From NCBI GenBank assembly GCA_029209985.1, contig JARGNZ010000011.1:1-64000 (forward strand): a stretch of 64,000 nucleotides of DNA, given 5' to 3'. Shown one piece after another: positions 57,317 to 59,254 of the stretch. The stretch comes from Parvibaculaceae bacterium. Lineage in GTDB: Bacteria; Pseudomonadota; Alphaproteobacteria; Parvibaculales; Parvibaculaceae. Position 1 is the stretch's first letter, and every line of letters begins with the position of its first letter. Position numbers and translations under genes: made by a program. The notes under the pieces were generated by a model. That model was given only the letters and a program-made list of their open reading frames with translations, was not told where the DNA came from and did not search any database.

Positions 57317-57910
57317 TTAAGAATGTGCCAGTGTCTCAAAATAAGCTTTGCCCGGCTCTGGATTGTAAGAGAAATCTTTGCCCACATCACCGGAGACACC
57401 GTCAAAAGCGCCCGGTGTCAGCTCACACACGAGTAACCGAGACGCATCAACCGGCCCCGGCATGACGATTTGCCCTTGCGGCACAGGCTTAAACCCAACC
57501 TTGGCATAATAAGGCGCGTCGCCCACAAGGATGACCAATTTATGCCCCTTGTCACGGGCCACATCGAGCGCATGCCCCATAAGCTTCAAGCCGCCCCCTT
57601 GGCCACGCACGGTGGGATCCATCGCGAGCGGTCCCAGCATAATAGCAGGAGTTTGACCCAACAAAACCGGCCAAAAACGCAAAGAACCAACCATGTGGGC
57701 AGCATGCCCAGAAGTGCTAGAGACATCAGAAGAAGTGCCATCCGCCCCAACGTCATCGCACCACGCCACAAAGTTCAAGTCCTCCAGTGCGCGCACCCCT
57801 TCGCGTAAACGGTAAGCAGTTTTCGCATATCGGCCAGGGCCAAAAGCACGGTTCAGCAGGGCTTCGACATCAGAACGATCACGAGGTTCTTCTTTGGAAA
57901 TATGAAACAT
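57317..57910 (-). CDS. GNAT family N-acetyltransferase (YhbS-like)
   Basis: 197 residues. SLRFWPVLLGQTPAIMLGPLAMDPTVRGQGGGLKLMGHAL (parts) contains the acetyl-CoA loop RGQGGG; LVGDAPYYAKVGFKP is the later GNAT strand. The gene has an unusually long, structured leader (57911-58100) with a small Arg-rich ORF and three hairpins on its strand. Acceptor unknown. Confidence 0.85.
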   Translation of the reverse strand: MFHISKEEPRDRSDVEALLNRAFGPGRYAKTAYRLREGVRALEDLNFVAWCDDVGADGTSSDVSSTSGHAAHMVGSLRFWPVLLGQTPAIMLGPLAMDPTVRGQGGGLKLMGHALDVARDKGHKLVILVGDAPYYAKVGFKPVPQGQIVMPGPVDASRLLVCELTPGAFDGVSGDVGKDFSYNPEPGKAYFETLAHS

Positions 57911-57939
57911 GGAAATTCTCGGTTCTCAAAACGGTCTAT

Positions 57940-57957
57940 TGAAAAGATGGCTTTTCA
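57940..57957 (-). promoter_or_regulatory. Hairpin in the GNAT leader, near start
   Basis: TGAAAAG-CCAT-CTTTTCA on the minus strand, a perfect 7-bp stem 30 bases before the GNAT start codon. It may block or expose translation, in step with the leader ORF upstream. Confidence 0.4.
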
Positions 57958-57997
57958 GGGAGCGGTTTAGAGGCCGAGTGCAACACCTGCCATAATG

Positions 57998-58096
57998 TTA
58001 GCAGGACGCAGACACAGGCCGACCACCACAAACCCCTAATCGGGTGTTTGCGCAGCGTCGTCGTCGCTGGTCGGTTTTATGTGTCATCATCTTCAT
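57998..58096 (-). CDS. Putative Arg-rich leader peptide upstream of GNAT gene
   Basis: Small ORF of 29-32 codons ending TAA at 57998-58000, with ATGs at 58096, 58090 and 58087. AGGA stands 5 bases ahead of the ATG at 58090. The peptide has QRRRRCANTR followed by LGVCGGRPVSASC; codons CGA-CGA-CGA-CGC are four Arg in a row. The coding stretch overlaps a large hairpin (58019-58074), and another hairpin (CCTGC/GCAGG, 57986-58005) spans its stop. This is the layout of a leader that controls a downstream gene through ribosome stalling. It is about 88 bases ahead of the GNAT start. Confidence 0.5.
   Translation of the reverse strand: MKMMTHKTDQRRRRCANTRLGVCGGRPVSASC
58019..58074. promoter_or_regulatory. 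Large hairpin within the leader ORF
   Basis: CCGACCA (58019-58025) pairs with TGGTCGG (58068-58074), enclosing an inner stem CAAAC-CCC (58029-58036) with GGG-T-GTTTG (58042-58050). On the plus strand it is followed by TTTTAT, so it could also terminate any plus-strand transcript. Whether the active strand is minus (toward GNAT) is an inference from the leader ORF. Confidence 0.45.
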
Positions 58097-58339
58097 CCTA
58101 AAAGGTGCAGGTCGTCAAAACCTTGCAACAAAAAGGGATTATCACGCAGAATAAGGACCGTCCAGCAAAACCGTCAGGCTAGAAGAAGCGCAAAATTTAG
58201 CCCCCAAAGCCATTTGTCCGACATTCCGCCTCCAATGGCATAAAGAAGACTGGCAGAGCCCTTCTCAACCCGGTAGTTTTCTGCCAACGGGAAGCGAACC
58301 TCGCTTCAAACAGACATCCCTTTACGTTAGGAAAATACT
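58097..58339. other. Remainder of GNAT/SDR divergent intergenic region
   Basis: No gene, hairpin or repeat stands out in this 243-base stretch, which should hold the promoter of the SDR gene and that of the GNAT leader. Confidence 0.4.
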
Positions 58340-59254
58340 ATGGGTCTCTTGGACGGCAAAACAGTTCTCATCACTGGCGCTGGGCGCGGCATCGGCGAAG
58401 CCTGTGCCCTCATGGCAGCCGAACACGGCGCCAATGTTGTCGTAAATGATCTCGGTGCCTCCCTGACAGGCGACGATGCGGGGGGCGCGGGTCCTGCCGA
58501 TGACGTTGTTAAAAAGATTAAAGCCGCTGGCGGCAATGCCGTTGCCAACTCAGACAGCGTGTCAGACCGCAAAGGCGTGGACTACATGGTGCAACAAGCC
58601 ATGGACGAATTTGGAGGCCTTGACACCATCATCAACCCAGCCGGGATTCTGCGTGATGGTATGTTCCACAAAATGTCAGAAGACGATTGGGATGCGGTGA
58701 TCGATGTACACTTGAAAGGGTCTTTCAATGTGACACGCGCCGCCATTGAACATTTCCGCGATAAAGAGTCTGGCAACTTTGTGCTCTTCACTTCTACGTC
58801 TGGCTTAATCGGGAACATTGGCCAAGCCAATTATGCCGCCGCCAAAATGGGGATTGCAGGCCTGTCTCGCATTATTGCCATGGAAGGTGAGCGCAGAAAC
58901 ATTCGCTCCAACATCATCGCCCCCTTCGCATGGACCCGCATGATCGCCTCCATCCCGGTAAAAGACGAAGCCGGTGCGCAACGTGTGGAACGGATGAAAA
59001 ATGCCATGCGCCCCGAACAAGTCGCCAATTTGTCCATCGCGCTCTCAGCACCTGAGTGTAAAACCAGTGGCCAAATTTTTGTCGTGCGCGGCAACGAGTT
59101 GGTGTTGTTCAATCAACCACGCCCGGTTAAAAGCGTCGCTCGATTGGAAGGCTGGAACCCGGAGACAATTTTGAGCCATGCCCTTCCTTCCATGGAAGCC
59201 AGCATGACAGACCTTGGCGCCTCAGCTTCTGTCTTTTCTTGGGAACCTATTTAA
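58340..59254 (+). CDS. SDR family oxidoreductase (MFE-2/hydroxyacyl-CoA dehydrogenase-like)
   Basis: 304 residues. TGAGRGIGEACA is the NAD(P) loop; the insert VVVNDLGASLTGDDAGGAGPAD resembles peroxisomal multifunctional enzyme type 2 dehydrogenases; catalytic Ser and Tyr-x3-Lys in STSGLIGNIGQANYAAAKMG. The usual NNAG is NPAG here. The C-terminal extension goes past a typical SDR. Likely acts on 3-hydroxyacyl-CoA, but the MaoC partners are 22 kb away. TAGGA precedes the ATG; a terminator follows. Confidence 0.82.
   Translation: MGLLDGKTVLITGAGRGIGEACALMAAEHGANVVVNDLGASLTGDDAGGAGPADDVVKKIKAAGGNAVANSDSVSDRKGVDYMVQQAMDEFGGLDTIINPAGILRDGMFHKMSEDDWDAVIDVHLKGSFNVTRAAIEHFRDKESGNFVLFTSTSGLIGNIGQANYAAAKMGIAGLSRIIAMEGERRNIRSNIIAPFAWTRMIASIPVKDEAGAQRVERMKNAMRPEQVANLSIALSAPECKTSGQIFVVRGNELVLFNQPRPVKSVARLEGWNPETILSHALPSMEASMTDLGASASVFSWEPI

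Follow-up and report, generated by a model that had tools for sequence, protein, structure and literature searches.

Two features usually give a leader peptide away: a conserved amino-acid sequence, or a series of codons that all specify a single amino acid. In the his and trp transcription attenuators, runs of one amino acid's codons gauge the speed of decoding, and a terminator is used. In leaders of the ermC type, a stalled ribosome masks segment 1, segment 2 pairs with segment 3, and the ribosome-binding site (RBS) in segment 4 is freed, the stall being due to the drug together with the nascent peptide; in the macrolide leaders with an R/K-X-R/K motif, arrest is set by the amino-acid motif, whichever codons encode it.

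Two further systems resemble the leader described here. The toiL leader of the E. coli topAI-yjhQ transcript is a short translated uORF that precedes a toxin–antitoxin operon, with a structure-occluded RBS that is relieved upon stalling and with several drug classes sensed along its length; the parts of that paper covered mention neither an Arg run nor a CGA run (PMC12121999). In orf34 of the Salmonella speF leader, consecutive Arg codons (AGG CGG) within a conserved DUF2618 peptide steer the folding of the leader and the downstream expression of ornithine decarboxylase, according to the parts of the report covered (PMC6386406).

In the leader of a GNAT acetyltransferase gene studied here, the constant part is instead one synonymous codon repeated three times, CGA-CGA-CGA, which was found in 65 of the 130 class-sampled alphaproteobacterial genomes with the gene and in 35 of the 62 sampled families. 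This leader differs from those of the ermC type and from toiL in having a synonymous codon run, and not a peptide, as its constant element; since the peptides around the run are unrelated, a search for conserved small proteins would overlook it. No description of a GNAT leader with three CGA codons was found in the literature by title or start of abstract, most subscription papers and all preprints being beyond reach. We consider that this leader is probably a cis-acting translational attenuator that would turn GNAT on when CGA is decoded slowly, a reading drawn from sequence and computed folding. It provides a natural system in which synonymous codon choice can be tested as a regulatory signal.

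The locus was examined in a 64,000-nucleotide stretch of DNA (the window) from a Parvibaculum-related alphaproteobacterium. On its minus strand, a mini-ORF of 29–32 codons lies in a strongly folded leader upstream of a YhbS-like GNAT gene (57317–57910, 197 aa). An earlier note, made from the letters alone, had pointed to an Arg-rich ORF of this length with the codons CGA CGA CGA CGC, to an AGGA before an internal ATG and to three hairpins, and all of these are present. The longest version of the mini-ORF runs from 58096 to 57998, contains two internal ATGs (58090 and 58087) and encodes 32 aa (MKMMTHKTDQRRRRCANTRLGVCGGRPVSASC). Its likely start is the ATG at 58090 (58090–57998; alternatives 58096 and 58087), which the AGGA at 58099–58096 precedes by 5 nt, and the stop TAA occupies 58000–57998, leaving a gap of 87 nt to the GNAT gene. 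The complete run of Arg codons spans 58066–58055, of which 58066–58058 is the CGA-CGA-CGA found conserved in the comparison of GNAT leaders and 58057–58055 is the fourth codon, CGC. The HIRRT*HIMM core of speF orf34 (as given in the parts of PMC6386406 covered) is absent from the window peptide, read by eye; in contrast to that conserved peptide, only the CGA codons of the GNAT leader are conserved.

The leader region 58110–57900 folds with −69 kcal/mol, compared with −53.6 ± 4.6 kcal/mol in 200 shuffles (z = −3.4). Of the three hairpins, one (H1, 58050–58029, CAAACACC...GGGGTTTG) lies within the ORF directly 3′ of the CGA run, another covers the mini-ORF stop (58005–57986), and the third joins 57980–57965 to 57932–57918 near the GNAT start. 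Rfam at its gathering score gave no match anywhere in the 64 kb window.

The first clue that the arrangement is not confined to the window came from a DNA similarity search with the leader alone. Beyond the window it returned short weak matches only, and those in two genomes (G004 and G008) were located before GNAT. Among 30 loci of the leader search (L032–L061), mini-ORFs before GNAT were seen in L032, L037, and L039, and L034 carried one CGACGACGC frame ahead of a 161-aa ORF. The best 24 family loci, including the window, each have a small ORF with a CGA Arg cluster upstream of GNAT, with strict CGA-CGA-CGA in 23 of them. The exception, L019, has CGA CGA GAA CGA CGA about 134 nt upstream of the GNAT match, that is, two CGA pairs split by one codon.

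The locus set was then widened by taking upstream DNA from named genomes and from an even draw of the class, in which 130 of 133 genomes were examined (G025, G035, and G225 omitted). Removal of exact and near duplicates reduced the set from 247 to 243 and to 238 loci; the pairs L083/L068 and L013/L012 have a gene 60-mer in common and are different records, and L027, L029, and L031 were kept out of the table of loci, their matches being partial or beginning inside the gene. A mini-ORF opened by ATG with an in-frame CGA-CGA-CGA within 300 nt upstream of GNAT was found at 98 of the 238 loci, compared with 0 in the reverse complement and 0.4 in dinucleotide shuffles. One double (L028/L178) stays in this count; its removal gives 97 of 237 distinct GNAT loci. 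The claim that the leader arrangement exceeds chance is borne out by its recurrence upstream of GNAT orthologues across the class.

The codon choice within the run is strict. All three codons are CGA (third bases AAA) in 98 of the 126 in-frame CGN triples, CGA making up 2.8% of the 3198 Arg codons of the GNAT genes and 14% of the 306 other Arg codons of the mini-ORFs; where a fourth Arg codon extends the run, it is CGA in 11 of 40 cases. The frame is equally marked. Counted by ATG-opened frames, the run is read as CGA in 98 entries, as GAC in 12, and as ACG in 13, and the CGA frame is closed by a stop before GNAT in 97 of 98 loci, against 56 and 51 for the other two frames (Fisher p < 1e-13, relatedness ignored).

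These frame contrasts bear on a reading of CGACGACGA as a nucleic-acid motif, an operator or an RNA helix, and not as a codon run. A segment complementary to the run lies 24–48 nt after it, with a mean duplex energy of −3.2 to −3.6 (shuffles, about −2.2), so the motif pairs as well. The anti-CGA segments TCGTC and CGTCG cluster at +30 to +50 after the run and at −30 to −11 before GNAT; their excess over shuffles is modest (TCGTC, for example, occurs in 26 of 98 loci, against 17.6 ± 2.7), and the GNAT-side signal is weak in the duplex-energy test. A pure nucleic-acid motif predicts neither the bias of frame nor that of stops, and only 13 of 98 loci have an exact TCGTCG downstream, so that the partner strand varies where the CGA codons are constant. 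We regard this reading as very improbable.

The peptides are another matter. They range from MRRR*, MVNRRRR*, and MSNTRILRRRHG* (Microvirga) up to frames of about 40 residues, and beyond the Arg run nothing is evidently common to them. The earlier note, with stalling leader peptides of the R-x-R kind in mind, had suggested that GNAT expression may respond to Arg starvation, translation inhibitors or another signal, and had named conservation of the small ORF as a check. The CGA-CGA-CGA run and its frame are conserved and the peptide beyond RRR(R) is not, which favours decoding of the codons over arrest by the peptide; a stall-responsive leader before GNAT remains well supported by the comparative and folding evidence, and the note's proposal is in this sense partly supported.

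The same data weigh on the possibility of a drug-responsive leader, in which R-R-R(R) would be an R/K-X-R/K arrest motif at which a ribosome-targeting antibiotic stalls the ribosome and induces a drug-modifying or cell-protecting GNAT, as in the erm leaders or toiL. RRR is encoded in every counted mini-ORF, by construction; the predicted GNAT model is nearest YhbS, with Eis and AAC(2′)-Ia further down among many GNATs; and toiL, in the parts of its report covered, provides a precedent for a uORF that senses several classes of drug (PMC12121999). The motif is present, as in the macrolide leaders, but CGA is conserved beyond the amino acid: an amino-acid motif leaves unexplained both the excess of all-CGA triples and the freedom of the fourth Arg codon, and the common GNAT fold reveals no substrate. 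Such a leader appears unlikely, and decoding of the codons themselves is the preferred reading. The erm stall, which needs drug and nascent peptide, likewise differs from a rare-codon run set among unrelated peptides.

The tRNA set of the window's genome is consistent with slow decoding of CGA. Among the 30 of 33 tRNA matches that were read, the tRNA-Arg anticodons are ACG, CCG, CCT, and TCT, and no TCG anticodon was found; a TadA homologue is present with E = 9e-41, below the family cut-off. This set suggests that tRNA-Arg(ICG), by a weak I–A wobble, is the sole reader of CGA. According to the parts of the cited papers covered, tRNA-Arg(ICG) reads CGU, CGC, and CGA in most bacteria (PMC3711424), CGA is poorly decoded in Salmonella his-leader assays, and pairing with CGA there gave the highest de-attenuation for each Arg codon but AGG (PMC4046918). 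A general rule of slow CGA decoding is opposed by the finding that four consecutive CGA codons were no hindrance to lacZ in wild-type B. subtilis (PMC10454642), and in speF orf34 frequent Arg codons sense arginine as well as rare ones (PMC6386406). The latter finding implies that arginine sensing alone would not force CGA; the strict choice asks for something more than arginine, be it a slow baseline, the status of tRNA-Arg(ICG), or a drug effect on the weak wobble.

On this basis the following regulation may be envisaged. The transcript would begin upstream of a mini-ORF whose sole constant feature is the three CGA codons. When the run is decoded fast, or when the leader is naked, segment C would cover segment D in the GNAT ribosome-binding region and GNAT would be off; a ribosome slowed or stalled on the run would mask segment A, leave B free to pair with C, and so release D for translation of GNAT. 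The signal would most likely be too little charged tRNA-Arg(ICG), or any other state in which CGA is decoded slowly. A wider version is put forward only tentatively, as a possibility short of even chances. In it, the run would be a class-wide cis sensor whose three tandem I34–A3 wobble codons gauge the supply or integrity of inosine-bearing tRNA-Arg(ICG) (charging, TadA modification, or attack on the tRNA), and the gene it turns on would encode a dedicated acetyltransferase, the only gene of the window's genome to which, as far as found, such control would apply. The codon run, its frame, the in-frame stop, the promoter-like site, and a folding switch that goes beyond controls come directly from sequence and computation; actual stalling on the run and induction of GNAT are what we infer.

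In the window, the four segments are A (58075–58067, ACCGACCAG), B (58035–58013), C (57980–57965, CACTCGGCCTCTAAAC), and D (57932–57918, GTTTTGAGAACCGAG), D lying within the GNAT ribosome-binding region. In the computed naked leader, A pairs with B (pair sum 17.1) and C with D (8.0). When A is masked, as by a ribosome on the CGA run, B pairs with C (13.5) and D opens, the C:D sum falling to 0.7; past the run, C:D returns to 7.9. In silico, this exchange of A:B and C:D for B:C follows the four-segment logic of ermC-type leaders.

As a measure of access, the opening energy of the GNAT start region (−18 to +12) was computed across loci for successive positions of the boundary at which free RNA begins on the 5′ side. 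The folding scan kept 88 of the 98 leaders, those with a run-to-GNAT distance of about 105 nt or less being left out. The mean opening energy over these 88 loci was 11.66 kcal/mol with the boundary 30 nt before the run (naked leader), 9.0–9.6 kcal/mol with the boundary at +6 to +45, and 10.1–10.6 kcal/mol beyond +51; at the boundary set by a stalled ribosome it was 9.09, and past the run 10.58 kcal/mol. The gain from naked to stalled was 2.57, compared with 0.87 ± 0.19 in 20 dinucleotide shuffles per locus, and the rise from stalled to past was 1.49, compared with −0.11 ± 0.13 in the same number of shuffles. In 135 loci without the mini-ORF, taken at a matched position, the gain was 0.40 and the rise −0.17. 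With one locus per family (30 loci) the values were 2.96 and 1.44; counted by family, a gain above 0.5 kcal was seen in 70% and a past-stall rise above that value in only 53%. The window alone gave a gain of 5.0 and a rise of 6.7 kcal/mol, where its shuffles gave −0.1 ± 0.7 and 0.3 ± 1.6.

A first version of this test on 94 loci gave the same order of states (11.86 naked, 9.13 stalled, and 10.46 with the ribosome at the stop); the stalled value was below the naked one in 62 loci and above it in 16, and the value at the stop was above the stalled one in 47 loci and below it in 24.

The route by which the RBS is occluded is less uniform. With fixed segments over 30 families, the naked A:B sum was 6.7 (shuffles, 5.2 ± 0.6), the stalled B:C sum 7.9 (8.2 ± 1.0), and the naked C:D sum 5.2 (4.4 ± 0.5). 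Since these sums are not clearly above shuffles, the route of occlusion probably differs between lineages. A first profile showed no more pairing of the RBS in the naked leader than in mononucleotide shuffles, and RNAalifold on 13 subclades found hairpins near the run and no whole-leader structure in common.

The hairpin next to the run is the most regular structural element. In 79 of 98 loci, the start of the best local hairpin lies within 14 nt of the CGA run, where about 37 such loci would be expected from mononucleotide shuffles; this start is approximately at the edge of a ribosome with the third CGA in its A site. Because shuffling destroys H1 too, part of the average access effect may stem from H1. 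The excess of hairpins so close to the run would also be expected if ribosomes queued on CGA beside H1 triggered cleavage or exposed a Rho site and thereby altered the GNAT mRNA, and the speF and toiL leaders, in the parts of their reports covered, join RBS occlusion with Rho or RNase control (PMC6386406, PMC12121999). An effect on mRNA fate does not predict that RBS access should be best near the stall position and that the pattern should be absent in controls; we hold it to be rather improbable, below the drug-responsive leader, and keep translational attenuation as the preferred reading.

Two other mechanisms were considered and rejected. A programmed frameshift into GNAT does not fit, as the +1 frame of the window stops at 58038 and the −1 frame at 57938, and across the set of 98 loci, shifted frames that stay open show no preference for the GNAT frame (7 of 42 and 17 of 47). 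TadA-type mRNA editing of the loop, for which UACG is the motif, was dropped by eye, the loop having no UACG.

The position of the transcript start had been raised by the earlier note as a check, and its outcome agrees with the note's reading: in relatives, TGNTA sites resembling an extended −10 element cluster 31–100 nt before the CGA run, and the window has such a site at 58144 (TGATAAT, 58144–58138). For TGCTA, TGATA, and TGTTA together, a motif set picked after viewing the sequences, 62 occurrences in 97 loci fall into the bins −100 to −31 ahead of the run, compared with 12 in those from 0 to +119 after it. A strict sigma-70 consensus scan detected no promoter in the leader region of the window, so we infer the start site of the leader, near 58131, from the motif pile-up. 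One consensus scan of the window found no intrinsic terminator on the minus strand of 57850–58400; in contrast to the his and trp attenuators, regulation is predicted at translation initiation. A stretch resembling a Shine–Dalgarno (SD) sequence precedes the nearest mini-ORF ATG in only 47 of 98 loci (26.8 at control offsets), which weighs against the attenuator, and the GNAT ATG in 54 of 98.

The downstream gene is a YhbS-like GNAT, judged by its GNAT domain and by the closest solved relative of its predicted model. Family search gives a generic GNAT (Acetyltransf_1, 26.2 bits, cut-off 20.7), and phmmer matches E. coli YhbS (4rs2, E = 5e-9). The model (pLDDT 83.8) is closest in fold to the same protein (Z 18.1, rmsd 3.2, 158 aligned), followed by a Brucella melitensis GNAT (4zbg; Z 15.8, rmsd 2.5, 136 aligned), Eis (Z 14.7, rmsd 3.0, 144 aligned), and AAC(2′)-Ia (Z 14.5, rmsd 2.8, 151 aligned). 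N-acetylglutamate synthase was also considered and is not favoured, sequence and fold being nearest YhbS and ArgA scoring lower (Z 13.4). The cause of ribosome pausing on CGA would give a handle on the role of this widespread acetyltransferase.

The gene itself (E < 1e-25) was found in 58 of 199 Pseudomonadota genomes, all 58 of this class. The window's own genus was represented, in the search that yielded L027, L029, and L031, by a single genome, 70% complete, without a GNAT match. One point against an attenuator is that the triple CGA is missing from roughly half of the class genomes that carry this GNAT. With ATG, GTG, or TTG starts allowed, CGACGACGN is present in 77 of 130 class-sampled genomes and 38 of 62 families, and a CGACGACGN mini-ORF was not found in the other 24 sampled families. 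Of 80 named-genome loci, 76 are in the table and 13 of them have the run; an out-of-sample check of 21 further loci found CGACGACGN in 3. In one family genome (G005), a second GNAT paralogue (L281, contig C68) showed no Arg-triple mini-ORF, although the three CGA codons are present at the first copy, L011.

Within the window's draft genome, 14 matches to ATG-N(3-33)-CGACGACGA were found and 13 examined (L290 is nested with L291). In three, ATG and run share a reading frame: the window's own match, L285, which stops at once, and L289, which is antisense to a 550-codon stop-to-stop frame. By this pattern with ATG starts, the draft genome holds no other in-frame CGA-CGA-CGA mini-ORF outside genes.

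None of the Bradyrhizobium-named loci (among L066–L117) has the CGA-CGA-CGA mini-ORF, though GNAT is present; in several of them an TGCTATCC-like motif is visible by eye in translations close before the gene, which suggests a short leader. The codon preceding the run is Leu or Gln in 63 of 98 loci (14 of 30 with one locus per family), possibly a P-site context effect. Upstream of the window leader, a divergent SDR-like gene, recognised by eye, lies on the plus strand (58340–59254). A similar divergent gene start is visible by eye in L014, L021, and L027, and in L012/L013 the leader is kept with a different gene upstream.
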